A stretch of 34,022 nucleotides of DNA from Methanococcoides seepicolus (GTDB taxonomy: Archaea > Halobacteriota > Methanosarcinia > Methanosarcinales > Methanosarcinaceae). This document shows positions 7,467 through 31,147 of this stretch, in pieces. The notes beneath the pieces were generated by a model. That model saw only the letters and a program-made list of their open reading frames with translations, was not told the DNA's origin and made no database searches. Each line of letters begins with the position of its first letter. Position 1 is the stretch's first letter. The translations under genes and the position numbers were made by a program. The stretch lies in the NCBI RefSeq assembly GCF_023684405.1, contig NZ_JAGSOI010000013.1, positions 11,414 through 45,435 on the forward strand, written 5' to 3'.

Positions 7467-7481
7467 TGACTTGGTTAGAAC

Positions 7482-8176: not shown

Positions 8177-8191
8177 GGAGTAATAGACAGT

Positions 8192-9971: not shown

Positions 9972-9973
9972 TC

Positions 9974-10758: not shown

Positions 10759-10772
10759 GTGATTTAGTTAAG

Positions 10773-10905
10773 ACATAATGCAACATCGTAAAGATGTTAG
10801 TGGGGATTCAGCCAGTCTTGACGGAATAACTGAAGCCCCGTGCCCGGAGGCAGGGTTATACTTTGCTGTTTGTACTATATAAGCGTAGCTTCGCCTCTGG
10901 AGAAA
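10773..10905 (+). ncRNA. Conserved structured leader, copy B
   Basis: The predicted stems are as follows. The outer stem pairs ATAATGC (10775) with GTACTAT (10872), with one mismatch and one G-U. A hairpin AACATC/GATGTT lies at 10782-10798. A long stem pairs GGGGATTCAG (10802-10811) with CTGAAGCCCC (10830-10839). TGCC-CGGA-GGCA lies at 10841-10852, and a short GCG/CGC hairpin at 10883-10894. The predicted transcript start falls at about 10776-10780, so the element begins the mRNA. It ends just before the ribosome binding site of the protease at 10923. It could be a cis-acting RNA, or it could encode a short peptide (frame at 10778). Confidence 0.68.
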
Positions 10906-10922
10906 TAAATGAGGTATATATT

Positions 10923-12029
10923 ATGAAAAATATGCTAAAGATAAGCTTGAGCATAATGATTATAAGCATTATGTTCACTGGTTTCGCATGGGCGGGATCA
11001 TCCGATTCCAGCCAAGATGAATATTTTGAAGAAGAATACTATTTCCCGGATTACGGGTCAATCGCATTTGATTCGCTGGAAAAAGATTCGAATGTGCTTG
11101 AAAGTCGAGGAACCGTTCCTGGAATTACAGAGGATAAAGAAAAACTGGACTGGTTAGATACAATTTGGGAGTGCATTAATAATTCGGAAAAAGAACTTCA
11201 TCCATACATGAAAGAAAATGGGGGTCCATTGACTGGGTTCGGTGTTAACTATGGAGGATATCTATTTGTAGAGTTCGATGAGGAGATAAAGGATATTAAT
11301 AAATCTACAATTGACAATTTCTACAACATAATAGATGCAAATGCAAAAAAAGCAGAATTATCTGATATTCCAGTAGTTTTCAGAAAAGGAGAAAAAGTGC
11401 ATCTTGATTCACGTACTACACTATGGGATGATATGATTGGCGGGATTAAAATAAACCACAAGGACCCATCAACTGGCTTATGGTATAAGTCAACATTATC
11501 ATTTGCTGCAGAAGATAGTAATGGCAATAAAGGATTTGTTATGTCAGGGCATGCCGCAATGGGTGCCGGTGGTGTTGGAGGAGACATCTATCAAGGTGGA
11601 AGGAAAGTAGGGGATGTAACTTATCTCACAGGTCACTTTGCAGATGCTGCATGGGTGGAAGCCAATAATGTCAACGCTGAGATTTATTACGATGACGTTG
11701 ATGATGTTAGAGGTGTCCACGGTTATTATCCTGATGATGTATCCGTAGGTTCTACAGTTTATGTTTCAGGAATAACCACTGGTTATACGTCTGGTTGTGT
11801 AACAGATAGATATAAGAATAAAAACAGCGCGACTTTTGGAACTCTTTATGATCAATTCATTGCAGATTACCCCTGTGCTAGTGGGGATAGTGGAGCTCCT
11901 GTTTTTAAAATGTATGGAAATGAAGTGGTAATTGCTGGTGTACACTGGGGACACACTGACACAGAATCCTTTTTCTCACCAATGAGTGGTGTTATTTTGG
12001 ATTTAGATGTAACCCCTCTGACAACTTAA
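10923..12029 (+). CDS. Secreted trypsin-fold (S1-like) protease with N-terminal pro-region-like domain
   Basis: The 368-residue protein begins at the ATG at 10923, with GAGGT 8 bases upstream. The frame is also open 20 codons further upstream, but that part lies in the leader. The signal peptide is residues 1-22 (MIISIMFTGFAWAG). Residues about 35-150 form the shared N-domain (FPDYGSIAF, RGTVPGI, GGPLTGFGVNYGGYL, LSDIPVVF). The catalytic domain has His210 (VMSGHAA), Asp241 (ADAAWVE) and Ser323 (SGDSGAPVF), resembling bacterial streptogrisin and alpha-lytic-type enzymes. It is probably an exported serine protease whose N-domain acts as a pro-region. It has no C-terminal anchor, so it may be released. 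The N-domain gene at 12177 follows. Confidence 0.82.
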   Translation: MKNMLKISLSIMIISIMFTGFAWAGSSDSSQDEYFEEEYYFPDYGSIAFDSLEKDSNVLESRGTVPGITEDKEKLDWLDTIWECINNSEKELHPYMKENGGPLTGFGVNYGGYLFVEFDEEIKDINKSTIDNFYNIIDANAKKAELSDIPVVFRKGEKVHLDSRTTLWDDMIGGIKINHKDPSTGLWYKSTLSFAAEDSNGNKGFVMSGHAAMGAGGVGGDIYQGGRKVGDVTYLTGHFADAAWVEANNVNAEIYYDDVDDVRGVHGYYPDDVSVGSTVYVSGITTGYTSGCVTDRYKNKNSATFGTLYDQFIADYPCASGDSGAPVFKMYGNEVVIAGVHWGHTDTESFFSPMSGVILDLDVTPLTT

Positions 12030-12176
12030 ATGAATGGATTTTTTTAACATGTTTGCTGAATTACAAATCGTAATTTGGCACATTATTTTTAATAATTATG
12101 ACTAAATTATTTAATGTAAAATAGAAGTAATTTGTTGTATGATAACAATATATTACTGATTACCGGGGACCATGAA

Positions 12177-13256
12177 ATGCTAAAGAGAAAAGAAATTGGT
12201 AAAATTTTAATGCTTGTACTATTAGTTTCTTTTTTATCATTAGATTCTGCAAGTGCTGCTGATGATGAATTAAATGATTTTGAAGATACTGATGGAATCT
12301 CTGATTTAAATAACTCTAGTTCTTATTTTGGAGAATATATGGCTGATCCATTGTTCATAGCCAGCAGAGGAGCTTTCCCTGAAACAATTGACCAGGAATG
12401 GAAAAATTCTGGTACTGATTGTTGGATTTCTATACACAATATGGGACCATCATATTTAGATCCGTGTATAAAAAGCTCCATGTCTGACAAGAATCGATTA
12501 ACAATAGTGGAATTGTATCCTGTTTGTCAGGGAAAGATAAATGAGTCAAAAATTGATGAAATATATCAGACAATAAACAAACACTTTGAACATGAGAGTA
12601 TCAGTGAGATGCCTGTGGTCTTTATGTGGGCACAGGATGATGAAGATATGCCGCTTCCCGATTATGGTCCGGAGATCTTTGAGGAGGCTAAAAGTGATCC
12701 ATCGTTTATAGCTGCCTACGGGACAATGCCCGTAATCAGGCAGGAAATTGAAAAAAGAGAATGGACGAATTTACTTTCTACTTACAGCCGCAACAATAAG
12801 GAAGTTCTCCAGTTTTTCGCTGAGTTTGATGGGCCTGTACTAAGTTATGGGACTAGCATCAACGGATATCTGAGGGTGGGTCTGGACTTAGAAAACCCGG
12901 AAAAAGTAAATGCGTCTGTAATTGATGAAATATATCAGACGATAAACAAACCTTTTGAAGAGGAAGCAGGCATAAATGAAGTGCCAGTACTGTTTGAATG
13001 GGAGGGACGTGCTGTTGAAGACATAGCTTTAGACACCCCTCCATTATCAGATGAAGAGGATATTTGTGTGATAGATGATGATGGAAATGTTATAACCTAT
13101 ACAAAGGATGAAGCATACTTCGACGAAGATGGAAATCTTGTGATCATAGGCAATGAAACAATACAAGAAGAAAACGGGACAAACAAGCAAACACCAGGTT
13201 TCACCTCAATAATGCTCATTATCGGACTGTTGTTATCGGCAATGCATAGAAAATGA
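12177..13256 (+). CDS. Secreted protein with two N-domains and a PGF-CTERM anchor
   Basis: The protein has 359 residues from the ATG at 12177, chosen because the start context (GGGGxCCATGAAATG) and the N-terminus MLKRK-IGKILMLVLLVSFLS recur in the paralogue at 30587. After a signal peptide (1-27) come a diverged N-domain (about 38-140) and a typical one (about 160-285: LPDYGPEIF, GTMPVI, GPVLSYGTSINGYLRVG, INEVPVLFEW). An acidic linker and TPGFTSIMLIIGLLLSAMHRK, a PGF-CTERM-like tail, end it. It carries no catalytic site. It directly follows a protease with the same N-domain. Its last ~65 codons begin a block duplicated at 17311. Confidence 0.76.
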   Translation: MLKRKEIGKILMLVLLVSFLSLDSASAADDELNDFEDTDGISDLNNSSSYFGEYMADPLFIASRGAFPETIDQEWKNSGTDCWISIHNMGPSYLDPCIKSSMSDKNRLTIVELYPVCQGKINESKIDEIYQTINKHFEHESISEMPVVFMWAQDDEDMPLPDYGPEIFEEAKSDPSFIAAYGTMPVIRQEIEKREWTNLLSTYSRNNKEVLQFFAEFDGPVLSYGTSINGYLRVGLDLENPEKVNASVIDEIYQTINKPFEEEAGINEVPVLFEWEGRAVEDIALDTPPLSDEEDICVIDDDGNVITYTKDEAYFDEDGNLVIIGNETIQEENGTNKQTPGFTSIMLIIGLLLSAMHRK

Positions 13257-13340
13257 TGGGTTTTGGCTCATCTGCAAAACCAAAAAGGAACATTACGATG
13301 ATGGGAATATTCATTCTGGTGTTCTTTGATACATGCCATT

Positions 13341-14078
13341 ATGCATTCGGAATTGCGTAGAATTGATACTGATAATCTCATACTGGACCCTGCCATCGGT
13401 AAATGGGTGCCGGAGAAATCAGCGATGTATGACCTTGAGACCATCGACCAGTTCGAACGCCTGAAGGTGTTCGAGAAACCCCTGCTTGCAGCCATTTCAC
13501 GCAAGTCTTTCATCGGTGATCTGCTCAACAAGCCCGCAACTGAGCGTCTGTACGGAAGTCTGGCGGCAGCCGCCATTGTTGTGCAGAAAGGGGCTCATAT
13601 CATCCGTACACATGATGTTGCAGAGACATTTGACGTTGTGCAAATAGCGGCTGCTGTTCGAAGCAGGCAGCCCGTTGTGGAAGAGAATGGTTTCGAGGTC
13701 AGCGTTCTGGACATTCCCTATCCCTATGATGCGGCTCTTTCCATGCGAAATATAGGTGTTACAGGCACAGGGTCCAAGATAATGAAGAACAAGACGGTGT
13801 CCCGTGTGCTGCGTATCAGTAATATTACGACCACAGAGGCATTAATAATCAAGCAGGAGATCCTTGCAAGAGGTGGGGATGCAGCACTGGAAAGGGATGC
13901 GGTTTCCCATGAGACCGAGAAGACCGATGTCATTGTCATTGGTACGTTGCTACAGGTAAGAAAGCTTGCAGATAAGCTCGAGTGTCAGGCAAGGAACCTT
14001 CCCCTTATCTCAAGGATGATAAAGGATGCACTGAAGCAGGAATCGGACATTGAATTCCGTTATTTGAGGGAATCATGA
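13341..14078 (+). CDS. DHPS-like protein, N-terminally truncated (copy 3)
   Basis: The frame joins the full DHPS-like protein at about residue 165 (HSELRRIDTDNLILDPAIGKW) and continues to the end, about 245 residues. It keeps DPAIGKW, SRKSFIGDLL, IRTHDV and the whole C-terminal domain, but lacks the first five or so barrel strands with their pterin-binding motifs, so it should be inactive as a DHPS. The ATG at 13341 is the first methionine in frame; a TTG at 13326 is an alternative. Its TGA overlaps the ATG of metV copy 3 (ATGA), which gives translational coupling. The upstream junction is the same as in copy 4. Confidence 0.65.
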   Translation: MHSELRRIDTDNLILDPAIGKWVPEKSAMYDLETIDQFERLKVFEKPLLAAISRKSFIGDLLNKPATERLYGSLAAAAIVVQKGAHIIRTHDVAETFDVVQIAAAVRSRQPVVEENGFEVSVLDIPYPYDAALSMRNIGVTGTGSKIMKNKTVSRVLRISNITTTEALIIKQEILARGGDAALERDAVSHETEKTDVIVIGTLLQVRKLADKLECQARNLPLISRMIKDALKQESDIEFRYLRES

Positions 14079-14689
14079 TAATCTCATCTTCCAAACCTTT
14101 CAATGAGGTCCTTGAAATGCTGATGGACAAGGATGCCGTTTATATTATCGGGTGCAGTGTCTGTGCTGCCAAACAGCACGTAGGCGGGGAGCCTGAGGTC
14201 GAGGAAATGTCCTCTCGCCTTAAAGAGGCCGGAGTAAACGTTGTCGGTGGAATTGTTGCAAAGGCAGCATGCAGCGTTCGCTCACTTGAATATCTTGAGG
14301 AAATTGCACCGAACATCGGAGATGCTACTGCTGTTCTGGTAATGGCATGTGGCAGCGGTACTTCGAACATTGCACGGTTTGTGGACGTGGATGTTTATCC
14401 TGCCAACAACACCGATTCGCTGGGTGCTATGGCCGGAGATAAGGTCATCCATCATCTGTGTGCCATGTGTGGTCAGTGTACGATCGCCGATTTTGGGGGC
14501 ATCTGTCCCACAGCACAGTGCCCCAAGGAGTTGCTTAACGGTCCTTGTGGCGGTTCAATGGACGGCAAGTGTGAGGTCGATCCCGAAAAGGATTGCGTGT
14601 GGGAATTGATCTATGAACGTCTTGAGAGGATAGGCAGGCTGGATCTGTTGGATGAGGTTCGGGATGCCAAGGATAGGCTGGTGAAGTGA
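14075..14689 (+). CDS. metV: MTHFR C-terminal-domain protein (MetV-like), copy 3
   Basis: This copy has 204 residues, starting in ATGA overlap with the DHPS-like fragment. The conserved cysteines are present except that the second cysteine of KAACSVRSCEYL is Leu here (SVRSLEYL). Other small changes are AMAGDK for AMTGDK, and CVWELIYERL. It is followed by the half-site repeat, operator and leader C. The product is expected to bind zinc or iron-sulfur and to assist MetF, but no metF gene is nearby. Confidence 0.87.
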   Translation: MIISSSKPFNEVLEMLMDKDAVYIIGCSVCAAKQHVGGEPEVEEMSSRLKEAGVNVVGGIVAKAACSVRSLEYLEEIAPNIGDATAVLVMACGSGTSNIARFVDVDVYPANNTDSLGAMAGDKVIHHLCAMCGQCTIADFGGICPTAQCPKELLNGPCGGSMDGKCEVDPEKDCVWELIYERLERIGRLDLLDEVRDAKDRLVK

Positions 14690-14807
14690 GTTCTTTTTTT
14701 GTCATTTCGATGTGGGTTATTGTTGATCGGTTTCAAAGTAGGATGTCGGACAAGTCTTCTGATTTCTGCCACATCTTTCCTGTAAAAACAGGATATTCCT
14801 GTGTATT

Positions 14808-14856
14808 CAACTGTTCACTTTCAGTTCGATGATATGGCCAGAGAATATTTATAATG
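14808..14856 (+). promoter_or_regulatory. Dyad operator plus TATA box, copy C
   Basis: CAACTG (14808) and CAGTTC (14822) are 8 bases apart. TTTATAAT begins at 14848, 26 bases from the start of the right half. The half-site repeat TCCTGT-AAAA-ACAGGA-TAT-TCCTGT lies just upstream, from about 14778. Confidence 0.75.
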
Positions 14857-14870
14857 TGACTTGGTTAGAA

Positions 14871-15000
14871 CATAATGCAACATCGTAAAGATGTTAGTGG
14901 GGATTCAGCCAGTCTTGACGGAATAACTGAAGCCCCGTGCCCGGAGGCAGGGTTATACTTTGCTGTTTGTACTATATAAGCGTAGCTTTGCTTCTGGAGT
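14871..15000 (+). ncRNA. Conserved structured leader, copy C
   Basis: It has the same stems as copy B: outer ATAATGC (14872) with GTACTAT (14969), AACATC/GATGTT, GGGGATTCAG/CTGAAGCCCC and TGCC-CGGA-GGCA. In the last small hairpin GCG pairs with TGC instead of CGC, a G-C to G-U change that keeps pairing. It ends before the AGGAGAT ribosome binding site of the gene at 15023. Confidence 0.68.
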
Positions 15001-15022
15001 AAATAAATAGGAGATAAAGTAA

Positions 15023-16123
15023 ATGAAAACAAATACAAAACCAATACTACACATTTTGTTAATATGTGTATTTTTAGTTGGAATGTCATTTGCGGGGACA
15101 GCTGCTCCAAATGAGGACAAAGAAGAAAAGAATTTACCTGAATTTGGGCGCAACATCCATGAAAAATTAGAAAAGGACACAAAAGTAATAAAAGTAAATG
15201 GAACAATTCCCGAAATAAAATATGAAAAAGAGAAAAGGAAGTGGCTTGATAAATTAGATAAGAATGGAAAGAAAGTGAACAAAGAAATGCTTCAATATAT
15301 GCAACCAAATGGTCCATTAGTTTCTTGTGGTTACAATTACCAAGGATATTTGGTTGTTGATATATTGGAAGGATCTGAAATTGACGAATCTATGATTGAC
15401 GACATATATGAAATATATAACAAACAAGCCAAAAAAGATGGAATCAAGGAAGTGCCAGTTGTATTTCAATATTCTCCACAAATTGAGGTAACATCACGAA
15501 GTAGTACGTGGAATCCACTTATTGGAGGAATAAAAGTTGAAAGAAATGGTGCCTCATCAACTCTTGGATTTGCAGTGAGAGACAAAACTACACATGACGA
15601 GGGATTCTTGGTTGCAGGCCACAGTGCTCTGGCTGCGGGTGGAATTGGAAGTATGTTCTATCAACCTTATGTAGATGCATCTAAAGAAATAGGAACCGTA
15701 GATATACTTACATTTAAGTATGCGGATGCAGCTTTCATAGAGGATGATAAAAGAAATGTTGACAACAAAATTTATTACAAAGATACTGACCAATTAATGG
15801 ACGTTACTTCTTCTGAAGAGCCAGAGGTTGGAGATTATGTTAAAATATCAGGAGTAGCATCGGGCCTTTCTGGTAGTGGTCGTGTAACAGATGTTAATCA
15901 TATTACAGCCTACCTAGGTTATCCCAAATTGTATGACCAATGTAAAGCGCTTTACAACTCTCAGGGCGGAGATAGCGGATCACCTGTGTTCGATGAAACT
16001 AGCACCTCCACAGTCGCTATATATGGAATACATAGTGGAAGTGCTACAGACGGATCCTACGCACTTTTTTCCCCAGTAAGTGGAATTGCTGAAGATTTAA
16101 ATGTAGAACCTCTTATAAATTAA
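15023..16123 (+). CDS. Secreted trypsin-fold (S1-like) protease with N-terminal pro-region-like domain
   Basis: This 366-residue protein starts 8 bases after AGGAGAT. It has a signal peptide (1-24) and an N-domain of about residues 38-150 (LPEFGRNIH, NGTIPEI, NGPLVSCGYNYQGYLVV, IKEVPVVFQY). The chymotrypsin-fold domain has His200 (VAGHSALAAGG), Asp235 (ADAAFIE) and Ser318 (GGDSGSPVF). The N-domain and catalytic domain have diverged far more from the 10923 paralogue than have the metV and leader sequences around them. A perfect hairpin with a T-rich tail follows the stop, so the protease mRNA probably ends before the HEAT-repeat gene. Confidence 0.82.
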   Translation: MKTNTKPILHILLICVFLVGMSFAGTAAPNEDKEEKNLPEFGRNIHEKLEKDTKVIKVNGTIPEIKYEKEKRKWLDKLDKNGKKVNKEMLQYMQPNGPLVSCGYNYQGYLVVDILEGSEIDESMIDDIYEIYNKQAKKDGIKEVPVVFQYSPQIEVTSRSSTWNPLIGGIKVERNGASSTLGFAVRDKTTHDEGFLVAGHSALAAGGIGSMFYQPYVDASKEIGTVDILTFKYADAAFIEDDKRNVDNKIYYKDTDQLMDVTSSEEPEVGDYVKISGVASGLSGSGRVTDVNHITAYLGYPKLYDQCKALYNSQGGDSGSPVFDETSTSTVAIYGIHSGSATDGSYALFSPVSGIAEDLNVEPLIN

Positions 16124-16124
16124 A

Positions 16125-16160
16125 GTGTTGTCTTAAATAGACAACACATTTATTTTTTAT
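16125..16160 (+). terminator. Hairpin and T-rich tract after protease C
   Basis: GTGTTGTC (16125-16132) pairs perfectly with GACAACAC (16140-16147) across a 7-base loop, followed by ATTTATTTTTTATATTTT. It starts two bases after the stop codon. Confidence 0.7.
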
Positions 16161-16203
16161 ATTTTCCAGAAGGAAGCGATGTAGTGTTAATGAGGTACAT
16201 TCC

Positions 16204-17499
16204 ATGATTATAAAAGTTTTAATTCTAACAACTGCGGTTCTAATATTCGTTACACCTATGACGTATGCTGATGCCAAGAATCTTGATTTTGAAAACAAGA
16301 CCACAATTGAAATACTAATCGAAGATATGGCAGTTCAAAATGTATCCGTAAGCTCAAATGCTGTAAGAAGTCTTGTTGATATAGGAGAGCCTGCAGTTGA
16401 ACCTCTTATTCAGGCGTTGGAAAACAACAATCTGGATATCCGGGAAAACTCTGCGATTACACTTGGTAAAATTGGGGATAAAAGAGCAGTTGAACCTCTT
16501 CTTAACTTAATAGACGATGAATGCCAGGAGGTAAGAATTGCAGCAGAAATCGCACTTGGGGACATCGGGGAAGAGCATATAGATCTTTTGGTAACTCATG
16601 CCAACAATCCAGACAAAAGCTTATCTTCACGAAAAATAGCAATAATTGTCTTGGGAGAATATGGCGAAAAAGCAGTACCTCACCTTATTGAGTTATTATC
16701 TGAAAACGATGATTATTTTACATTGTCTGGTGAAGTTAGATATTCTTTAGCAAAAATCGGGGAACCGGCTGTAGATCCATTGATAAAATTACTGGAAAGT
16801 GATGATCCTGATGTTAAATCCAGCGCCATTAAAGCTCTTGGCGATATTGGAGATGAGTGCGCGATTGAACCTCTTAGCAAGGCTTTGAACGATGAATCAG
16901 AACTGGTAAGAAACCTCGCCAAATCAAACATAGAGAGAATTGAAAACCATAATGCTCATTTCTCCTATGTAAGTTACGGAAAAGTTCCTACATTTTACAC
17001 AGAAGATGAAAGACAAGAATGGTTTAGCAATCTCGAGATTATTGTAGGCACTTCAGAAACAGAAATGGACAAATACATCCGACCTGAAGGTTCTGTATAT
17101 TCTTATGGATGCAGTTATGACGGACATATTTCAGTTGGCATTGTAGCAGATTCAGGAGTAAATGAATCATTGATGAATGAAATCTATGATATATTTGACC
17201 AACATGCACAGGAGATTGGAATTGAAAATGTACCTGTTTTGTTTGAGTACGGAGATATTGAGGCTGGCGAAGCTATTGATGAAGAGGATATTGTTGACAG
17301 AAACATTGCAGTGATAAATGATGATGGAAATGTTATCATCTATACAGAGGATGAAGCATATTTCGACAAAGAGGGAAATCTTGTGATCATAGGCAATGAA
17401 ACAACACAAGAAGAAAACGGGACAAATAAGCAAACACCAGGTTTTACCTCAATAATGCTCATTATCGGACTGTTGTTATCGGCAAGGAGTAGAAAGTGA
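16204..17499 (+). CDS. Secreted HEAT-repeat protein with C-terminal N-domain and PGF-CTERM anchor
   Basis: The 431-residue protein has GAGGT upstream of its ATG and a signal peptide (1-24). Residues about 30-245 are PBS-lyase-type HEAT repeats with recurring IGEPAVEPLIQAL, ALGDIGDECAIEPL and similar. They form an alpha-solenoid for protein binding. Residues about 248-350 hold the domain shared with the proteases (YGKVPTFY, GSVYSYGCSYDGHISVG, VNESLMNEIYDIF, IENVPVLFEY). The end, TPGFTSIMLIIGLLLSARSRK, is a PGF-CTERM-like anchor. HEAT solenoids are uncommon in anchored surface proteins. Its neighbour is the protease at 15023, again a protease/N-domain pair. Confidence 0.8.
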   Translation: MIIKVLILTTAVLIFVTPMTYADAKNLDFENKTTIEILIEDMAVQNVSVSSNAVRSLVDIGEPAVEPLIQALENNNLDIRENSAITLGKIGDKRAVEPLLNLIDDECQEVRIAAEIALGDIGEEHIDLLVTHANNPDKSLSSRKIAIIVLGEYGEKAVPHLIELLSENDDYFTLSGEVRYSLAKIGEPAVDPLIKLLESDDPDVKSSAIKALGDIGDECAIEPLSKALNDESELVRNLAKSNIERIENHNAHFSYVSYGKVPTFYTEDERQEWFSNLEIIVGTSETEMDKYIRPEGSVYSYGCSYDGHISVGIVADSGVNESLMNEIYDIFDQHAQEIGIENVPVLFEYGDIEAGEAIDEEDIVDRNIAVINDDGNVIIYTEDEAYFDKEGNLVIIGNETTQEENGTNKQTPGFTSIMLIIGLLLSARSRK

Positions 17500-17657
17500 T
17501 AGTTTTTGTGGTCATATCTCCAACCAAAAAGGAACATTACGATGATGTGGGCTGAGAATATTCATTCTGGTGTTCTCTGATACATGCCATCATGCGTTCG
17601 GAATAGCGTAGAATTGATACTGACCAGCTTATTCTGGACCCTACCATCGGTAAATGG

Positions 17658-18329
17658 GTGCCGGAAAAATCAGCGATGTATGACCTTGAGACCATCGACC
17701 AGTTCGAACGCCTGAAGGTGTTCGAGAAACCATTGCTTGCAGCTATCTCACGCAAGTCCTTCATTGGTGATCTGCTCAACAAGCCTGCAACTGAGCGCCT
17801 TTATGGAAGTCTGGCAGCAGCCGCGATCGTTGTGCAGAAAGGTGCACACATCATCCGTACCCACGATGTTGCAGAGACATTCGATGTGGTTCAAATTGCG
17901 GCTGCTGTACGAAGCAGACAATCTGTTGTTGAAGAGAACGGTTTCGAGGTCAGCGTTCTGGACATTACCTATCCCGATGATGCGGCTCTTTCCATGCGAA
18001 ATATAGGTGTTGCCGGCACAGGTTTTAAGATAATGAAGAACAAGACGGTATCCCGTGTGCTGCGTATCAGTAATATCACAACCACAGAGGCGTTGATAAT
18101 CAAACAGGAGATCCTCGCAAGAGGTGGGGATGCAGCACTGGAAAGGGATGCGGTTTCCCATGAGACCGAAAAGACCGATGTCATTGTCATTGGTACGCTG
18201 TTGCAGGTAAGAAAACTTGCAGACAAGCTCGAGTGTCAGGCAAGGAACCTTCCCCTGATCTCAAAGATGATAAAGGATGCACTGAAGCAGGAATTGGACA
18301 TTGAATACCGTTATTTGAGGGAATCATGA
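17658..18329 (+). CDS. DHPS-like protein, N-terminally truncated (copy 4)
   Basis: The frame runs 223 codons from a GTG at 17658, matching the full DHPS-like protein from about residue 185 to the end. Homology continues upstream to an ATG at 17592, but a TAG at 17604-17606 interrupts it, where copy 3 has TTG. The C-terminal domain is intact. The barrel is incomplete, so it should not be a working DHPS. The stop overlaps the metV start (ATGA). Members of the Methanosarcinaceae can read some TAG codons as pyrrolysine, so a read-through product from 17592 is conceivable, but simple decay is likelier. Confidence 0.62.
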   Translation: MPEKSAMYDLETIDQFERLKVFEKPLLAAISRKSFIGDLLNKPATERLYGSLAAAAIVVQKGAHIIRTHDVAETFDVVQIAAAVRSRQSVVEENGFEVSVLDITYPDDAALSMRNIGVAGTGFKIMKNKTVSRVLRISNITTTEALIIKQEILARGGDAALERDAVSHETEKTDVIVIGTLLQVRKLADKLECQARNLPLISKMIKDALKQELDIEYRYLRES

Positions 18330-18940
18330 TAATCTCATCTTCCAAACCTTTCAATGAGATCCTTGAAATGCTCATGGACAAGGATGCCATTTATATCATA
18401 GGTTGCAGCGTCTGTGCTGCCAAACAGCATGTTGGAGGGGAGCCCGAGGTCGCAGAGATGGTATCTCTTCTCTCTGATGCCGGAGTAAATGTTATCGGGG
18501 GAGTTGTGGCAAAAGCTGCATGCAGTGTCCGGTCCTACGAGTATCTTATGGAGCTTGCACCGAACATCGGTGATGCCACTGCTGTTCTGGTAATGGCATG
18601 TGGCAGCGGCACTTCGAACATTGCACGTTTTGTGGACGTGGATGTCTATCCTGCCAACAATACCGACTCGCTGGGTGCCATGACAGGAGATAAGGTCATC
18701 CATCATCTGTGTGCAATGTGTGGCCAGTGCACGATCGCCGATTTTGGTGGTATCTGTCCTACGGCACAGTGCCCCAAGGAATTGCTTAACGGTCCTTGTG
18801 GCGGTTCAATGGACGGCAAGTGCGAGGTAGATCCCGAAAAGGACTGTGCGTGGGAACTTATCTATGAACGTCTTGAGAGGATTGGCAGACTGAATCTGCT
18901 GGATGAGGTTCGGGATGCCAAGGATAGATTGGTGAAGTGA
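18326..18940 (+). CDS. metV: MTHFR C-terminal-domain protein (MetV-like), copy 4
   Basis: This copy has 204 residues, ATGA-coupled to the truncated DHPS-like frame. Its N-terminal half follows copy 1 (AEMVSLLSDAGVNVIGG) rather than copy 3, although its upstream neighbour matches copy 3; this mosaic suggests gene conversion among copies. One cysteine is replaced (SVRSYEYL). The C-terminal cysteine cluster and GPCGGSMDGKCEVDPEKDC are kept. Operator and leader D follow. Confidence 0.87.
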   Translation: MIISSSKPFNEILEMLMDKDAIYIIGCSVCAAKQHVGGEPEVAEMVSLLSDAGVNVIGGVVAKAACSVRSYEYLMELAPNIGDATAVLVMACGSGTSNIARFVDVDVYPANNTDSLGAMTGDKVIHHLCAMCGQCTIADFGGICPTAQCPKELLNGPCGGSMDGKCEVDPEKDCAWELIYERLERIGRLNLLDEVRDAKDRLVK

Positions 18941-19061
18941 GTTTTTTATCTTCTGCAATTGGAGATGCTTTTTTTGTTGATAGGCTTCAAGTTAGATGTC
19001 GGGCAGCTCTTCTGAATTTCGACCACATCTTTTCTGTAAAAACAGGATATTCCTGTGTATT

Positions 19062-19109
19062 CAACTGTTCACTTTCAGTTGGATGATATGGCTAGAAAAT
19101 ATTTATAGG
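19062..19109 (+). promoter_or_regulatory. Dyad operator plus TATA box, copy D
   Basis: CAACTG (19062), 8 bases, CAGTTG (19076) form a perfect dyad. TTTATAGG begins at 19102, again 26 bases from the start of the right half. The half-site repeat TTCTGT-AAAA-ACAGGA-TAT-TCCTGT lies just upstream, from about 19031. Confidence 0.78.
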
Positions 19110-19123
19110 TTGATTTAGTTAGG

Positions 19124-19255
19124 ACATAATGCAACATCGTAAAGATGTTAGTGGGGACTCAGCCAGTCTTGACGGAATAACTGAAGCCCCGTGCCCGGAG
19201 GCAAGGGTATGTTTTGTTGTTCGTACTATATATGCGTAGCTTCGCCTCTGGAGTA
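19124..19255 (+). ncRNA. Conserved structured leader, copy D
   Basis: The outer pairing is ATAATGC (19126) with GTACTAT (19223). AACATC/GATGTT and TGCC-CGGA-GGCA are intact. The long stem GGGGACTCAG/CTGAAGCCCC has one extra mismatch next to the usual internal one. The 3' GCG/CGC hairpin is present. The short frame starting at 19129 is open but ends later than in copies B and C, with a different C-terminus. Confidence 0.66.
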
Positions 19256-19274
19256 TATGATATGAGGTAAGAAT

Positions 19275-20441
19275 ATGAATCGAAATCAAAAAAGAATAGC
19301 TGCTATTGTACTTGCATCAATTGTACTTATTACAATAGCATTTTCTGGATTTGCATCTGCAAAAAAAGTAGATGACACGAATACTGAGAAAGAAGACCTT
19401 AAGGAACTTATTGACAACATTCCACCAACGAATCCAAGTATTCTAGAGGACAAGAAGGAAAATAAAAATGTGTTAAAAACTAAAGGAAAAATTCCTAAAA
19501 TAACCGAAGGAAAAGAGGTGTATGAATGGCAGAAAAAGCTAGATAAAATTCGAAGGCGCATAAACAAAGACAAAGCATTAGCCTCTTATACTGAGGATGG
19601 AACTGTAATGGCATATGGTGTCCATAAAGATGGTTATTTCATTGTTATGAATGATGAAAACGCAGAAATAACAGAAGAGGAAATGGTTGATATCACTAAA
19701 ATAATTGACAAGTATGCTAAATATCTGGGAATCAGTGATACTCCAATTGTGTTCACTAAAGAAAAGCCACCAAAGTTCACAGCTGCACCTGACCCTGCAA
19801 CTCTATTTTTATCTCCCTACTTCGATCAGTACAGACCAATCATGGGAGGAATTGGACATTCAGTAATAAATACAAACGCCAACCAAGCAGGGTTTGGCAC
19901 AATTGGATTTGCAGCAGAGGATAATAATAACCAAAAAGGATTTGTTATTGCTGGACATCTAGCAGGTTTCCAAACCGGTTTCCCCATATATCAACCAAAT
20001 CTTTCTGCAAGCAGTTACATTGCTAACGTATCGATTATTGGTACAACTACAGATGTAGCATTTGTCCCATATGATAATGTGGAAGGGAAATTACACATTA
20101 GCAATGGGTATATAATAGATGTTGATGGCTATTATTCTGGCGGGATTAAAGACATGTATCTCCAAAGATCAGGTATTTCATCGGGATACAAAGGTGGGGA
20201 GTATCTGGGAACATTAACACATGAAAATGTTTTAGGTCACCATATGGATACAATCGAATTCATGTGGGGACATTGTATTCAGGGAGATAGTGGTGGACCA
20301 ATATATGCACAATACAATAATCGCAATAAGCTAGTGGGAACAGTATGTGCAGATGGATTCTTTGAGGGTGATCCAGCTACCATATATATTCCATGCGGTG
20401 AAATCGTATCAAAGCTTGGTGTCGATCCTTTAGAAGCATAA
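19275..20441 (+). CDS. Secreted trypsin-fold protease, divergent paralogue, with N-terminal domain
   Basis: This 388-residue protein has a signal peptide (1-29, IVLITIAFSGFASAK). The diverged N-domain (about 45-165) shows KGKIPKI, GTVMAYGVHKDGYFIV and ISDTPIVFTKE. The serine-protease domain has His228 (VIAGHLAGF), Asp260 (TTDVAFVPY) and Ser339 (QGDSGGPIY). It is the most divergent of the four, with a longer insert between the N-domain and the catalytic domain (PPKFTAAPDPATLFLSPYF). GAGGT lies 7 bases before the ATG. It is followed by a hairpin terminator and the double N-domain gene at 20488, keeping the pair order. Confidence 0.8.
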   Translation: MNRNQKRIAAIVLASIVLITIAFSGFASAKKVDDTNTEKEDLKELIDNIPPTNPSILEDKKENKNVLKTKGKIPKITEGKEVYEWQKKLDKIRRRINKDKALASYTEDGTVMAYGVHKDGYFIVMNDENAEITEEEMVDITKIIDKYAKYLGISDTPIVFTKEKPPKFTAAPDPATLFLSPYFDQYRPIMGGIGHSVINTNANQAGFGTIGFAAEDNNNQKGFVIAGHLAGFQTGFPIYQPNLSASSYIANVSIIGTTTDVAFVPYDNVEGKLHISNGYIIDVDGYYSGGIKDMYLQRSGISSGYKGGEYLGTLTHENVLGHHMDTIEFMWGHCIQGDSGGPIYAQYNNRNKLVGTVCADGFFEGDPATIYIPCGEIVSKLGVDPLEA

Positions 20442-20487: not shown

Positions 20488-21549
20488 ATGAATTATAAAA
20501 TAATACTAGTAATTTTGTTCATTCTCTTTTCAAGCTCTGGAATTTGCTTTGCAAATGAAACAAATATTCTTTCTAACTACTATTCATCCACAGCCATAGG
20601 GGAAACGAATCAAACGATGTCATCGATTGATAGTGTTTTTATGGGTCTCACTGATCCAAATAGCACACACTATAACCCTTATGTACTGAAAACTTATGGA
20701 GATATACCAGCAATCGAAAATAAAGATCAATTAGCTATTTTCACAACCAAAATAAGAGAGATTCGAGAGAATTCTTTTGAAGAAATTGAGCCATATATGT
20801 ATCCATCTGGTCCGATAGTAACATTTGGTTCCCATCCGAGTAAAGGATATTTTCAAATAGAACTTTATGGAAGACTTGAAACAAAAGATGATTATTATTC
20901 AAATTATGATTTTGATTGCATCTACCTGATCCTTAAAGAACACGCAAAAGAGTCAGAAATTGACAAGTTTCCTGTTGTTTTTACAATTACAGATGATACG
21001 CAATTGGTAGGATTTTCAGATTGGTATGACGAGGAGTCTTACTTATTAATAAATAGTACCAATTTGCCACAGAGTGTATACACACTTCAAAGGTTGGAAG
21101 GCCAAAACTTGAACGATTCTACCATTATTGGAAGTCCTATATACGATCCAGATGTGATTGTTGGATATGGTGCAGTTCCAAAAATGGAATACATCTTATT
21201 GTCAAATTATACTGGCAAATTGCGGGCAATCAACAACAAAATATCTGGGCAAATGAAAATATTTGAATATCCATCTGGTCCAATTAAATCATATTCTGTC
21301 CATTCTTCAAATGGATATTTGATAGTCAACGTTACTAGTGTATCTAATCAAGAGGAACTGAACGATATATACAACCTCATTCAAGTAAAGGCAATGGATG
21401 AAGGAATTGAAAGCATACCGGTTCTCTTCATAAACGATTCTGAGGAGGGGTTAGATTCTAACGAAAGTACTTTTCTAAATAAAATAAGTGGTAAGGTCTC
21501 AGTCATTTCATCATTTATAAGATCACTAATTTCGATTTTTGACTTATAA
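20488..21549 (+). CDS. Secreted protein with two divergent N-domains, no C-terminal anchor
   Basis: This 353-residue protein starts 9 bases after AGAGG and has a signal peptide (1-22, LVILFILFSSSGICFAN). The first N-domain (about 65-175) shows YGDIPAI, SGPIVTFGSHPSKGYFQI and IDKFPVVFTI. The second (about 215-325) shows YGAVPKM, SGPIKSYSVHSSNGYLIV and IESIPVLFIN. Unlike the other stand-alone members, the C-terminus (SSFIRSLISIFDL) is a weak amphipathic stretch and not a PGF-CTERM tail, so the product may be released. It closes the series of four protease/N-domain pairs. Confidence 0.72.
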   Translation: MNYKIILVILFILFSSSGICFANETNILSNYYSSTAIGETNQTMSSIDSVFMGLTDPNSTHYNPYVLKTYGDIPAIENKDQLAIFTTKIREIRENSFEEIEPYMYPSGPIVTFGSHPSKGYFQIELYGRLETKDDYYSNYDFDCIYLILKEHAKESEIDKFPVVFTITDDTQLVGFSDWYDEESYLLINSTNLPQSVYTLQRLEGQNLNDSTIIGSPIYDPDVIVGYGAVPKMEYILLSNYTGKLRAINNKISGQMKIFEYPSGPIKSYSVHSSNGYLIVNVTSVSNQEELNDIYNLIQVKAMDEGIESIPVLFINDSEEGLDSNESTFLNKISGKVSVISSFIRSLISIFDL

Positions 21550-21708: not shown

Positions 21709-22443
21709 TTACCTTGCTAAAATGGCAGGTTCGACTTCCGATATGGCGTTTTCCAGATCTACCTCTATCGCCGGATTAATAAAACATCTTTTGTATTTTC
21801 CGTCGTTCTCAAAATATACAAGTCCTTCATTGTGCATGTCATTAATATGCCAGTGCACGGTGCTTTTGTCCAGATCAAATGTCTGCGTGAGATTCTGATT
21901 TGTCATTCCCGGTTTATGAAGAATGGATATCAAAATTGATTTTCCCGTGTCATTTCGCAGGAAGAATGCAATTTTTTGTTCTGTGTTGGACAATTTGCAA
22001 GAATTCTTAAAAATCATTACAATTTTTCCTTTCCTTACACATTTTACTTTGTTGCACATATGAAGTATTTTTAAATGATATTTAATAGTACCTCTGTTCA
22101 ATTTGAGTTGTTTTCCAATGTCAGATATCGTACTTCCGGGGTTAGCGGTTATAAATTCAAGAATTTCATCCCGATTTTGGTTTTTGCAGTTTTGTCTTAC
22201 TCTTCCGAGCAACAAAGGCAGGAACTTGTAAAGGGTTACGGAAGTCGCCAGCAGTCCTGATATATAAATTAGTTGAAGCTTAAAAGGAAGTTCCCAGAAA
22301 GAGATTGTGTCCTCTGCTCCACCGCCACTATACATCCCCCTTTCAGGACCGGTGTGTGGGACTATTTCATATTCGTTTGCACTGGCTAAAGTGGGAGTAC
22401 AAACAAGTATGGTCAGTAAGAGCAAAATCCACAATTTGTTCAT
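21709..22443 (-). CDS. Membrane-tethered transcriptional regulator with two winged-helix domains
   Basis: The 244-residue protein starts with a signal-peptide-like segment (1-22, LWILLLLTILVCTPTLASA). About 30 extracytoplasmic residues follow (NEYEIVPHTGPERG), then one transmembrane helix (about 55-80, LIYISGLLATSVTLYKFLPLLL). The cytoplasmic part holds two winged-helix domains: about 90-150 (NPGSTISDIGKQLKLNRGTI, KYHLKIL) and 155-230 (KPGMTNQNLTQTFDLDKSTV, HWHINDMHNEGLVYFE). It should bind DNA from the membrane and respond to an outside signal in one component. It lies 18 bases after the PPC-like gene in one operon. The operon promoter shares the 22943-22988 dyad, so self-control is likely. 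It is my best candidate for the dyad-binding protein. Confidence 0.78.
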   Translation of the reverse strand: MNKLWILLLLTILVCTPTLASANEYEIVPHTGPERGMYSGGGAEDTISFWELPFKLQLIYISGLLATSVTLYKFLPLLLGRVRQNCKNQNRDEILEFITANPGSTISDIGKQLKLNRGTIKYHLKILHMCNKVKCVRKGKIVMIFKNSCKLSNTEQKIAFFLRNDTGKSILISILHKPGMTNQNLTQTFDLDKSTVHWHINDMHNEGLVYFENDGKYKRCFINPAIEVDLENAISEVEPAILAR

Positions 22444-22461
22444 ATTCTATTGAAGAATTTT

Positions 22462-22884
22462 TCAAATATAATAGTCTTCCGTTCCACTGACACTATATCC
22501 GTAAACCTCATATCTCCAGGTTCCAAGGTCTATTCCGCTGGAGTTTCTTATATCAATATTGATCCTTCCGTCAATACTGCCGTCGAAACTGTCATAGAAT
22601 GTTCCAATAAGCTGGTTGTTTGGATCATATACTCTAAGCCTGAGTGAATCGCTTGTGTCACCCCAGTTCAGGTCGATGTGAAGGGAAGTTGCATAAGAAC
22701 TGACTGTTCTAGTGTGCCAATTTGTTTCTCCCTGTGTGATGGTATCAGCAACCCATCTTGGTGTGATAGTAATGTCTGATTTGACAGGGACGATGGTATA
22801 TCCGTTGTCCTGACTGGAAGTAGCTGCGGCAAAAGATACCGACACAAGCATCACTATTAACAATAATCCTATTTTTTTGATCAT
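22462..22884 (-). CDS. Secreted PPC-like beta-sandwich protein, probable partner of the regulator
   Basis: This 140-residue protein has a signal peptide (1-22, LLLIVMLVSVSFAAA). A compact beta domain resembles the bacterial pre-peptidase C-terminal (PPC) domain: SSYATSLHIDLNWGDTSDSL, RLRVYDPNNQLIG, and GTWRYEVYGYSVSGTEDYYI. The mature N-terminus, NGYTIVPVKSD, resembles NEYEIVPHTG in the extracytoplasmic part of the regulator encoded next, which hints that the two bind a common ligand or each other. GGAGG precedes the ATG. A stem TTTTACAA/TTGTAAAA lies in its 5' untranslated region (around 22905-22930). The gene is divergent from the C39-like peptidase at 23156. Confidence 0.68.
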   Translation of the reverse strand: MIKKIGLLLIVMLVSVSFAAATSSQDNGYTIVPVKSDITITPRWVADTITQGETNWHTRTVSSYATSLHIDLNWGDTSDSLRLRVYDPNNQLIGTFYDSFDGSIDGRINIDIRNSSGIDLGTWRYEVYGYSVSGTEDYYI

Positions 22885-22942
22885 ATAATATCCTCCAACA
22901 TTTTACAAACAATATTGTAAAAAAAATAGGATATAAGTTTTG

Positions 22943-23002
22943 TGTCCATATCATCCAACTGAAAGAAAACAGTTGGATGATGTGGACAGATTATATTTAT
23001 AC
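22943..23002. promoter_or_regulatory. Bidirectional operator: 19-nt dyad with symmetric TATA boxes, copy E
   Basis: TGTCCATATCATCCAACTG (22943-22961) and its inverted copy CAGTTGGATGATGTGGACA (22970-22988) differ at one position and are 8 bases apart. On the plus strand TTTATA starts at 22996, 26 bases after the start of the right half-site. On the minus strand TTATAT lies 25 bases after the start of the mirror half-site (around 22930-22936). One regulator dimer here could act on both the PPC/regulator operon and the peptidase gene. Confidence 0.82.
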
Positions 23003-23017: not shown

Positions 23018-23124
23018 ATATAGTGCAACATCGCAAAGATGTTAGTGGGGGTCCAGCTTAATCTTACAGTGATATCTGAACCCCGTGCCCGGAGGCAAGG
23101 TTAGGTTTGTAGTTTACACTATAT
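23018..23124 (+). ncRNA. Conserved structured leader, divergent copy E
   Basis: ATATAGTG (23018-23025) pairs perfectly with CACTATAT (23117-23124), closing the element. AACATC/GATGTT (23027-23043) and TGCC-CGGA-GGCA (23086-23097) are kept. The long stem reads GGGGTCCAG (23048-23056) with CTGAACCCC (23076-23084), where paired bases changed together relative to the other copies. The 3' GCG hairpin is absent. The short peptide frame is broken by TAA after about 12 codons. Confidence 0.7.
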
Positions 23125-23155
23125 TCTGAAGTAAATAAATCAAAGAGGTAAATGA

Positions 23156-24169
23156 ATGAGAACAAAAGAAATGAGAATTGTAACGCTAACGCTAATTGCA
23201 ATGTTTGTTGTAATCATGGCAGTTGTACCGGTTGCCATGGGGCAGGAAAATGAATTCAGTACCGAAAAAGAATATGGTGAACTATTCCTGAAAAATATGG
23301 GCCAGTCAAAGAAATTAATTAATCCCATTCCATTGAACAACATAAATGGTGATTTGGAAGCAGTATCATTTTCCATGAAAGATGGTGGCTACATAATAAT
23401 TAATGTAAATGACCTTTCAGTTCCTGAATTTTCGTTAGAGAGCAATTCGCCGTTTAGTGATAGTACCAGGACATATGTCTACAATGGTCCTCTCGCCTAC
23501 ATGGAAGACAAGCAGGGAAAATTATTCCAGATAGGAATAGGAGATAGGTCAGATGAAGCAGTAATTCCTGAATATATTTATGCAGTTGAAAGTGTGGATA
23601 AAGATAAAAAACTTGCTGATCTAAAAACCTTGGACAGTAGAGTAAGCGTACTATCTGTCAATTATGGATCATCATTGGATTATTCATTAAAAGAATGGAT
23701 AGCCACAACCACTTATAATTGTGGACCCACAGCGGCTGCTATAACTTTGGACTATTTTGATGATCACCACAACAATGCTTTTATTCCGTCACAATACGAA
23801 TCCCAAAGTGCTTTGTTTCCTTTTTTAACTCCCGACTACATCCCAAACGATGCGATTTTGCCACAAATGGAGCAAGGGCTTTTTGATATTTTATTTGATC
23901 ATGGCCTCAACAGCTACGATGCAGAAAGTAAAGACTATGTTGATTACAACAAGATAATATCTCTTATTAACTCTGACAAACCTGTAATTGTTGGTTTAGA
24001 TAATCATCCTACCTATGGTTATCATTGGGTAGTAACACATGGATACTATGTCGAAACTGTTCCATGGGTCACTCCGCATTATTATATCATAGTTAATGAT
24101 GGGGCGGGAAACAATAATGTTTATATCTTGGTAGACGGCTACGTTGACGACATGGTGTATATTGAGTAA
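23156..24169 (+). CDS. Secreted C39-like (papain-fold) cysteine peptidase
   Basis: This 337-residue protein has a signal peptide (about 1-31, LIAMFVVIMAVVPVAMG) and a ~140-residue N-terminal region that is probably a pro-domain (EYGELFLKNMGQSKKL, VSFSMKDGGYIIINVNDLS). The C-terminal papain-like domain has Cys189 (TYNCGPTAAAITLDYF), His290 (GYHWVVTHGYYV) and Asp315 (IIVNDGAG), the order seen in the C39-like_2 family. The likely role is cleavage of exported or extracellular peptides. It is the plus-strand partner of the bidirectional dyad promoter and is preceded by leader E. An inverted repeat follows the stop. Confidence 0.8.
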   Translation: MRTKEMRIVTLTLIAMFVVIMAVVPVAMGQENEFSTEKEYGELFLKNMGQSKKLINPIPLNNINGDLEAVSFSMKDGGYIIINVNDLSVPEFSLESNSPFSDSTRTYVYNGPLAYMEDKQGKLFQIGIGDRSDEAVIPEYIYAVESVDKDKKLADLKTLDSRVSVLSVNYGSSLDYSLKEWIATTTYNCGPTAAAITLDYFDDHHNNAFIPSQYESQSALFPFLTPDYIPNDAILPQMEQGLFDILFDHGLNSYDAESKDYVDYNKIISLINSDKPVIVGLDNHPTYGYHWVVTHGYYVETVPWVTPHYYIIVNDGAGNNNVYILVDGYVDDMVYIE

Positions 24170-28217: not shown

Positions 28218-28276
28218 CCATATCTTCCAACTGTTCTCTTTCAGTTGGACGATGTGGTCACAAAATATTTATAATG
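28218..28276 (+). promoter_or_regulatory. Dyad operator plus TATA box, copy F
   Basis: CCATATCTTCCAACTG (28218-28233) and CAGTTGGACGATGTGG (28242-28257) form a long dyad with few mismatches around TTCTCTTT. TTTATAAT begins at 28268, 26 bases after the start of the right half-site. It is the second best dyad after 22943-22988. It lies about 45 bases after the end of the broken lipoprotein gene. Confidence 0.8.
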
Positions 28277-28446: not shown

Positions 28447-29631
28447 ATGAAACCAAGTATAAAATTGGGATTGTGTACACTGCTTGTGTCTTTGTTGCTT
28501 ATAAGTGCAATTGTGCCAGCAATGGGTGCACAGCCAGAAGATAAAAACAGTGTATCGGTAGAAAAAGCTTTAGAACATGCAAATGCATATATGATGTACT
28601 TTACGGCTGAGAATACGCCAGGATTTGAAAAGTGGAATGGAGCATCAATTGATCCAAAACCGCTTGAACTTTATGACATTAACGGTACAAAGTTATACTA
28701 TCTATTCTCAGTAAAAAAGGAAGAAAATGTAATTGGGAAAATGAAAGTGGGAGCAAATAAAAAATTGGGAGCTTCAGTGCTCACCTTTGAGTTCAATCCT
28801 ATACCCATGAAAGTAGAAGAAGCATTGAAGAAATCAATTGAAATTGGTATGGAAGAATATCCGAATTGTGAAATCTCGTCAACTGTGATGGTACTATACA
28901 GCTATCCTAAAATTGGAGCGATGTCGGTTGTTATAGACAGTCGGGGTGAAATGCATCGAATTATTGTTGATGCGCATACCCTCGAAAAAGTACCAGATAA
29001 AAAAATAACTGAAACTGAGAATGGTATATGGTCAGTTTACGAACAGATTTCTGATATTGATGTAGATGACAATATAAAAAAATGGAATGATAGTGATAAA
29101 TTCACTGAAGCGATAAAAAACGCAAATAAAGAAGGAATCAGTACTTCTGAATATATTGCAAAAAATCAGATATTCAGACCAGATTACACAAAAACTTCTA
29201 GCAAGTTTCTCAACGTACCATTGTATGGGGGAGAAACCGTATTCTATTGTGCACCTGCAACTGCACAAATGATTGCAGCATATTATGGCGTGCAGCACAC
29301 TCAAGACTACATATATGGAATAATGGATGATGGTAGCGGTGGAGGATGCACTAATGCTGAGCAACTGACGTACTACAAAAGCTCAGATGGGCTAAATAAA
29401 AAGGGATCAAAAGAAGATACATCCCCTCAATATTATGAAGCTGTTTCAGAAATTGATCATAGCAGACCTTTAAAATGTGGAGTGACTGGCCATGCACGTG
29501 TGTGTACTGGATATCTGGACAATGGTTACCCCGCGTATTTGGCCATCAATGACCCGTCGCCAATGGGACAAGGAAGCCAATATTTAGAAGCATGGGGAAG
29601 CGTTGTAAATTACATATATGTGAGGGATTAA
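28447..29631 (+). CDS. Secreted C39-like (papain-fold) cysteine peptidase with pro-region
   Basis: This 394-residue protein has a signal peptide (1-28, LLVSLLLISAIVPAMGA). Residues about 35-180 form a PepSY-like or other pro-region (VEKALEHANAYMMY, YLFSVKKEENVIG, MHRIIVDAHTLEKVPD). The papain-like domain has Cys268 (VFYCAPATAQMIAAYYG), His349 (GHARVCTGY) and Asp369 (LAINDPSP). Similar bacterial proteins are called C39-like or papain-like peptidases. It shares promoter and leader type with the trypsin-fold proteases, which suggests joint control of two unrelated protease families. The gene after it starts right at its stop codon (TAAATG). Confidence 0.82.
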   Translation: MKPSIKLGLCTLLVSLLLISAIVPAMGAQPEDKNSVSVEKALEHANAYMMYFTAENTPGFEKWNGASIDPKPLELYDINGTKLYYLFSVKKEENVIGKMKVGANKKLGASVLTFEFNPIPMKVEEALKKSIEIGMEEYPNCEISSTVMVLYSYPKIGAMSVVIDSRGEMHRIIVDAHTLEKVPDKKITETENGIWSVYEQISDIDVDDNIKKWNDSDKFTEAIKNANKEGISTSEYIAKNQIFRPDYTKTSSKFLNVPLYGGETVFYCAPATAQMIAAYYGVQHTQDYIYGIMDDGSGGGCTNAEQLTYYKSSDGLNKKGSKEDTSPQYYEAVSEIDHSRPLKCGVTGHARVCTGYLDNGYPAYLAINDPSPMGQGSQYLEAWGSVVNYIYVRD

Positions 29632-30586: not shown

Positions 30587-31147
30587 ATGCTAAAGAGAAA
30601 AGTAATTGGAAAAATTTTAATGCTTGTATTATTAGTTTCCTTTTTGTCAGTAGCTTTTGCAAGTGCTGCTGATGACGAATTAAATGACTCTGATAATACC
30701 GATGAGATTACCGATTCAAATACCTCTAATTCTTATTTTGAACAATGTAAGCTTCATCCGCTGTTCATAACCAGCAGGGGAAGTTTTCCCGATACAACTG
30801 ATCAGGAATGGGAAAATTCGGTTTCCGGATGCTATGATTCCATAAAAATGGGGCCGTCATATACAATTGACAGTTCTATAAACTGCATCCTTTGCGGTCA
30901 TGAATTGATAGAAGTGCATCTGGGTTCTGCTTATCAGGGAAAAATGAATGAGTCTAAAATTGATGAAATCTACCGGAAAATAGAGGAGCGTTGTGAGCAG
31001 GAAGAGGGAATCAGTGATATACCCGTGGTCTTTATGTGGGCACAGGATGATGAGGATATGCCCCTTCCTGATTATGGTCTGGAGATATTTGAAGAAGCTA
31101 AAAGTAAAACTGCTCCGGGTTTTCCGGAGCTTATCTTTTTTAGTTGA
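30587..31147 (+). CDS. Short secreted N-domain-family protein, C-terminally truncated
   Basis: The 186-residue protein is closely related to the 12177 protein: the same signal peptide start (MLKRK-IGKILMLVLLVSFLS) and one diverged N-domain (about 40-155, ending DIPVVFMWAQDDEDMPLPDY). Where the 12177 protein continues into its second domain, this one goes from EIFEEAKS to KTAPGFPELIFFS and stops. APGF may be the start of a PGF-CTERM tail, but the hydrophobic helix is missing. The end is encoded by a terminator-like hairpin. It is therefore either a deletion derivative or a secreted short form. The start context matches that of 12177. Confidence 0.65.
   Translation: MLKRKVIGKILMLVLLVSFLSVAFASAADDELNDSDNTDEITDSNTSNSYFEQCKLHPLFITSRGSFPDTTDQEWENSVSGCYDSIKMGPSYTIDSSINCILCGHELIEVHLGSAYQGKMNESKIDEIYRKIEERCEQEEGISDIPVVFMWAQDDEDMPLPDYGLEIFEEAKSKTAPGFPELIFFS
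31112..31141 (+). terminator. Terminator-like hairpin inside the 3' end of the gene at 30587
   Basis: GCTCCGG (31112-31118) pairs perfectly with CCGGAGC (31124-31130) around GTTTT, followed by TTATCTTTTTT. It encodes the last residues of the preceding protein and ends a few bases before the next start codon. Confidence 0.6.

Follow-up and report, generated by a model that had tools for sequence, protein, structure and literature searches.

Gene organization of the locus

The window, a 34,022-nt stretch of DNA from Methanococcoides seepicolus, belongs to the 2.8-Mb genome of a methane-producing archaeon. It contains a gene pair on the minus strand, which consists of a regulator ORF of 244 aa (21709-22443) and, 18 nt upstream, a partner ORF of 140 aa (22462-22884). 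Divergently from the pair, an exported C39-like peptidase is encoded on the plus strand (23156-24169; Peptidase_C39_2, E 3.7e-9). A dyad lies between two TATA boxes, one for the partner-regulator operon (22932-22937, minus strand), whose position is conserved in relatives, and one for the C39-like gene (22992-23001, plus strand).

To examine the gene order, we inspected 40 fetched loci of regulator homologues. In most of the orthologue loci from several Methanosarcinaceae genera, the gene immediately 5' of the regulator is that of the partner, intact or decayed, and the pair is also found in a second family of Methanosarcinales (G154, G163, G175). This gene order across loci places an exported partner and the regulator in one operon, as for a regulator with a co-component. 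No recognisable partner accompanies the paralogous regulators of the source genus. Regulator homologues share 58-78% identity in close genera and 31-43% in more distant ones; outside Methanosarcinales, the related-locus search gave two homologues, both distant.

Predicted architecture of the regulator

The regulator begins with a signal-like start, followed by an outside segment of about 30 residues with EYEIVP at residues 24-29. A single hydrophobic helix is predicted from the sequence at about residues 56-79, and two winged helix-turn-helix (wHTH) domains are C-terminal to it. Pfam HTH_24 matches two stretches of the protein (E 1.8e-16), and wHTH1 (residues 89-134) scores 36.1 bits against HTH_HVO_0163_N (PF24266), above the gathering score of 31. 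AF2 predicts two winged helices at a pLDDT of about 77-88, the models of regulator and partner being built on 1 and 3 sequences. Pfam and AF2 thus agree with the two wHTH domains that the sequence-only reading had proposed, next to a signal-like start, a short outside part and one transmembrane (TM) helix. The short ectodomain is conserved, with Y.V.P followed by SGAD.T.SFWELPL ahead of the TM helix.

With the Pfam wHTH match, the tandem wHTH fold of the AF2 model and a predicted TM helix, the protein has the composition that defines transmembrane transcription regulators (TTRs), in which a single polypeptide carries a DNA-binding domain together with one or more TM regions. We consider it most likely to be a transmembrane one-component regulator, similar to ToxRS in having a secreted co-component.

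The exported partner and the YxVxP motif

The partner has a signal-peptide-like start and a beta-rich (PPC-like) sequence, with GYTIVP (residues 28-33) near the mature N-terminus. Its start agrees with the secreted PPC-like protein suggested previously, whereas the PPC assignment falls below the Pfam threshold. PPC (PF04151) matches of the partner stay under the gathering score, with a best E of 0.013 and in 2/16 homologues, and we rejected PPC membership for this reason. AF2 modelled the partner alone with pLDDT 55, and no fold match could be trusted; the top Foldseek match from this poor model is a Thermococcus subtilisin (3afg, E 0.013).

The likeness of YTIVP in the partner and YEIVP in the regulator, which the sequence-only reading had noticed, turns out to be real. 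Near the mature N-terminus, the pattern Y.[IV].P is present in 41/45 regulators and 15/20 partners, against 3/467 unrelated secreted-like ORFs. Counting all other secreted-like ORFs, it occurs in 7/471, and four of these seven have the N-terminus of the partner and lie in the same islands. Four loci (L096, 11822-13582; L097; L102; L104) also encode a large secreted protein, about 590 aa long, that shares the N-terminus of the partner (NYTVTPSFDTEIG) and may be a variant or fusion of it. The islands of this protein carry second regulator copies.

The common YxVxP strand suggests that partner and regulator bind each other or one third protein. The alternative, to which we give close to an even chance, is that the likeness reflects shared ancestry or the signal-peptidase context and involves no functional contact between the two proteins. 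The motif is short and sits just after the signal-like start in both, and several g1 regulators lack its proline (EYEIILDP), which is retained in the partner. Against this reading stand the rarity of the motif in unrelated secreted-like ORFs and its persistence in paralogues and in another family.

Half-sites at the divergent promoter

The dyad consists of two 19-nt arms, complementary at 18/19 positions and separated by a spacer of 8 nt. The arm at 22943-22961 (plus strand) contains the half-site CCATATCATCCAACTG (22946-22961) for the partner-regulator promoter, and the arm at 22970-22988 (minus strand) contains the half-site CCACATCATCCAACTG (22970-22985) for the C39-like promoter, whose TATA box starts 6 nt past it. 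The distance from the dyad centre to the centre of either TATA box is about 31 nt. In the lineages inspected, the 16-nt half-site CCAHATCRTCVAACTG or a close variant is present upstream of the gene pair. Within the window, we found nine half-sites with at most two mismatches, against 0.43 expected from shuffles.

The spacing of the half-sites at the pair's divergent promoter is 8, about 25 or about 50 nt depending on the genus. At other exported-protein promoters, single half-sites are located 6-7 nt ahead of the TATA box, and in copies 1-4 of the window the promoter-proximal half-site is the only intact one. Since the spacing varies and four promoters have one good half, we interpret the dyad as two independent half-sites, one for each promoter. 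The 19-nt-arm dyad shared by two promoters was correctly recognized in its arms, with a distance of about 31 rather than 33 nt, and the view of it as one symmetric operator is corrected accordingly. The dyad lies upstream of both TATA boxes and hence outside the transcripts of either promoter; a transcribed hairpin or terminator was rejected on the same ground.

Repeated promoter units in the window

Where a single shared dyad had been described, the window holds six units of half-site, TATA box and leader of about 145 nt, each ahead of an exported-protein gene except for the degenerate copy 1. The spacing is fixed in all six, with 6-7 nt between half-site and TATA box and 33-34 nt from there to leader stem P1, and is similar in relatives. 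The start of transcription is predicted about 5 nt ahead of P1. All half-sites of copies 1-4 are on the minus strand and all leaders on the plus strand. In copy 1, the half-site (7432-7447) is followed by a leader with a truncated P3 (7485-7630) and a protease ORF that has no signal peptide. This unit (7485-8176) is decayed in that P3 is gone and the signal peptide is missing.

The next three copies precede exported S1-like serine proteases on the plus strand: copy 2 (half-site 10725-10740, leader 10778-10921) the protease at 10914-12029 with SGHAA and GDSG, copy 3 (14822-14837, 14875-15019) that at 15023-16123 with AGHSA and GDSG, and copy 4 (19076-19091, 19129-19273) that at 19275-20441 with GDSGGP. 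The S1-like assignment is by the GHxA and GDSG motifs only, as no Pfam S1 match was found for these proteases of the window. The leader of copy 5 (23023-23151, plus strand; P1, P2 and a shortened P3) belongs to the C39-like gene of the divergent promoter. In copy 6, a distal half-site with one mismatch (28218-28233, plus strand) and a proximal one (28242-28257, minus strand) precede a leader with complete P1, P2 and P3 (28295-28439, plus strand) and a second exported C39-like peptidase (28447-29631, plus strand; Pfam C39_2, E 8.5e-8). A DDE transposase gene (PF01609; 26626-28083, minus strand) adjoins this leader copy.

The region 5105-19201 is built of tandem units of about 3.3-4.3 kb, in which the operator-leader units follow fragments of a pterin-binding (DHPS-like) gene and one copy of a methylene-THF reductase C-terminal-like gene. 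The promoter unit therefore seems to have multiplied through tandem duplication together with these upstream neighbours. Ahead of their catalytic part, the S1-like proteases (10914, 15023, 19275) have a domain of about 120 aa that recurs in neighbouring secreted proteins, alone, doubled or behind HEAT repeats (8307-8846, 12132-13256, 16204-17499, 20488-21549, 30587-31147). These neighbouring proteins may act on the proteases as propeptide-like inhibitors or as chaperones.

The half-site on the pair's own promoter and the half-site promoters ahead of exported proteases lend comparative-genomic support to the predicted self-regulation and control of exported proteases.

A structured leader RNA

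All six half-site promoters of the window run into the structured 5' leader, which the sequence-only reading did not cover. Iterated profile and covariance searches found it in 58/112 Methanosarcinaceae genomes, and a refined covariance model in 100/186 genomes and 18/27 genera of Methanosarcinales, the one archaeal order searched. The leader forms three stems, P1 (AACATC/GATGTT), P2 (GGGG-TTCAG/CTGAA-CCCC) and P3 (GGAGGCA.../...TGCCTC). Among 115 distinct sequences, 87.8% of cells pair and 26/30 pairs show changes on both sides; the covariation score reaches 0.351, whereas shuffles give 0.193 and slid partners 0.05-0.12. These figures tend to be too high, since the alignment follows the model and the shuffle takes no account of relatedness. 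An earlier count, on fewer sequences and with the structure of a single group, agrees. Copy 5 alone has a weak structure (z -0.7 to -0.2), and its support lies in the family as a whole. With a plain MAFFT alignment, RNAalifold gave no structure because insertions misalign, a problem that the covariance-model alignment solved.

Neither in the window nor in seven further loci did a leader match reach the Rfam gathering score. Matches to a microRNA and to sRNA162 at the dyad and leader were rejected as chance hits caused by the palindrome. In a Methanosarcina-like genome, an Rfam PYLIS_5 pyrrolysine insertion element is located near leader copies (L130, 15982-16081).

ORFs downstream of the leader are signal-peptide-like in 84/92 cases, against 51% of the ORFs in the same islands, a high background under a crude rule. 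The Shine-Dalgarno (SD) region of a gene is complementary to the P3 3' strand in its own leader, with a mean of -9.1 kcal/mol against -7.9 kcal/mol in within-group shuffles (0/2000 shuffles in two groups, p 0.0045 in a third). Examples are CCTCCTAAG with CTTAGGAG, and CCTTTTG with CAAAAGG. This covariation suggests that the leader is a translational switch. A leader that is only a 5' structure stabilising the mRNA and was carried along by tandem duplication, without switching, has somewhat less in its favour, and we lean modestly against it. The position of P1 at the predicted mRNA 5' end and the tandem origin of the window units fit such a stabiliser, whereas the spread over 18 of the 27 genera, the compensatory changes in all three stems and the covariation of the P3 3' strand with the SD region inside groups favour a switch. 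The leader is also found without a recognisable half-site, so the two layers of control appear separable.

Direction of control

The position of the half-site just outside BRE/TATA, as with the ArnR boxes of Sulfolobus acidocaldarius, favours activation. Repression is the unlikely alternative: half-sites abutting BRE would block TFB/TBP, and an extracellular signal would lift the repression of the proteases and of the pair. This reading draws on the 6-7 nt between half-site and TATA box, which put the site next to or overlapping BRE, and on autorepression, which is common among wHTH regulators with ArsR/SdpR-like domains. Nevertheless, the sites leave most of BRE uncovered and lie strictly upstream, where activators usually bind. 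The ArnR boxes are likewise upstream, at -43 to -84 (PMC6396743).

Co-occurrence of the half-site and the regulator

We searched the 186 genomes of the order for the compact dyad and found it in 15, with none for the reversed pattern. A regulator homologue, broken in one case, is present in all 15, although such counts are not independent of phylogeny. Gene pair and dyad were expected to co-occur across Methanosarcinaceae, and in 12/12 dyad-bearing genomes of the family the dyad lies upstream of a regulator gene, which is truncated in G036. In G036, regulator and partner are both truncated, yet one dyad remains. In the second family, G154 and G172 carry the regulator on the dyad contig, and in G158 the regulator match has two stops and sits on another contig than the dyad.

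In the source genus, the six genomes with an orthologue contain 9, 5, 5, 4, 3 and 3 exact half-sites, against 0 in the five without. Three genomes of the sister genus (G031, G033, G035) have no orthologue and no exact half-site. A genome with many dyads and no regulator homologue would have spoken against the proposal; none exists among the 186, and the nearest case is G037 (94% complete), with one lone half-site, a leader and no regulator found.

The paralogues of the source genus have NSTVSYHL in place of KSTVHWHI in the second recognition helix and lie beside a half-site variant that differs by one base, CCATTTCATC. The paralogue-linked variant CCATTTCATCGAACTG precedes lipoprotein and exported-protein genes (L112-L117). 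This correlated change of recognition helix and half-site base is the best sequence evidence that the regulator reads the site. In another genus, a further variant, CAGTTTAAACGATGGCCAC, is found ahead of the leader's TATA box (L128, 7534-7640; L129, 7414-7520; L148; L154), beside yet another regulator paralogue. A recognition code across the regulator paralogues is possible.

It is very improbable that another, unlinked DNA-binding protein reads the dyad and that the membrane regulator merely shares the duplicating secreted-protein islands, for although leaders and islands exist without the regulator and G037 keeps its half-site and leader, the half-site is on the pair's own promoter in two families, is gone where the orthologue is absent, and differs by one base where a paralogue with another recognition helix takes over.

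Proposed model

The conservation of the gene pair, the conservation and co-occurrence of the half-site and the covariation of the leader are established computationally. From these we infer binding, activation, sensing and switching, and we consider it probable that regulator and partner act together as a membrane-anchored one-component module, the partner being its secreted co-component, with half-site operators and a leader-RNA layer in addition. The original observation at this locus is confirmed and its interpretation partly supported.

In this model, the single helix would anchor the regulator in the membrane, and its tandem winged helices, dimeric or paired, would recognise CCAHATCRTCVAACTG where it abuts BRE/TATA of each target promoter. 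Of the back-to-back half-sites at 22943-22988, one would act on the operon of the pair itself and one on the divergent C39 peptidase gene; single good half-sites would act on the remaining exported proteases. The partner, secreted and PPC-like, probably reports the extracellular state to the regulator's short ectodomain, and the signal might pass through the YxVxP strand, either by direct contact of the two proteins or by competition for one binder. Transcripts would open with the three-stem leader, in which the 3' strand of P3 could pair inside P3 or with the SD region. This strand exchange would act as a second, translational control of exported proteins.

A more general form of the model is tentative and falls somewhat short of an even chance. 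It would assign to Methanosarcinales a two-layer control of exported proteins, in which membrane regulators with a secreted, docking-strand PPC-like co-component act on paralogue-specific half-sites at TATA and an order-wide leader switches by P3/SD pairing.

Comparison with known systems

To our knowledge, how archaea sense the outside and tune their secreted enzymes is poorly known, and very few operators are defined for membrane-bound archaeal transcription factors. The system described here adds a candidate regulator with its partner, operator and regulon, and the genera concerned include the cultured and genetically tractable Methanosarcina. The leader, supported by covariation, absent from Rfam and present in more than half of the genomes searched in the order, makes a candidate translational switch of archaeal exported-protein genes. 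In the openly accessible literature, we found no prior description of the leader, the operator or the pair.

Both wHTH domains of the regulator have matches above Pfam cut-offs among the HTH_24, ArsR and HTH_HVO_0163_N families, and these families do not cover the ectodomain, the tandem layout or the partner. The leader resembles SD-sequestering translational riboswitches and leaders in its logic, since an anti-SD strand would be common to a conserved stem and the SD; it has no Rfam match, and its switching is putative.

ArnR and ArnR1 of S. acidocaldarius are likewise archaeal membrane-bound one-component regulators, with inverted-repeat boxes just upstream of the core promoter and surface-protein targets (PMC6396743). 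ArnR differs in its N-terminal HTH, HAMP and two C-terminal TM helices and in its boxes (TCGAC-N5-GTCGA), and the passages on it mention neither a secreted partner nor a leader RNA (PMC6396743). The present regulator, with the opposite domain order, one TM helix and no HAMP, does not have the ArnR-family architecture.

As in the TTRs of a recent census, a DNA-binding domain and a TM helix are joined in one polypeptide that acts from the membrane, the location being predicted for our regulator; single-pass forms are the commonest, and Methanomicrobia are enriched (Demey et al., 2023; PMC10269533). As far as its available text goes, the census treats proteins only and gives no operator, co-component or regulon for this group (PMC10269533).

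By its arrangement, the pair recalls ToxR/ToxS of Vibrio, in which a membrane wHTH regulator is encoded together with an exported modulating partner (PMC13042144). The topology is reversed, as the ectodomain comes first here and the DNA-binding domains are C-terminal and tandem, and the partner here is apparently a soluble PPC-like beta protein.
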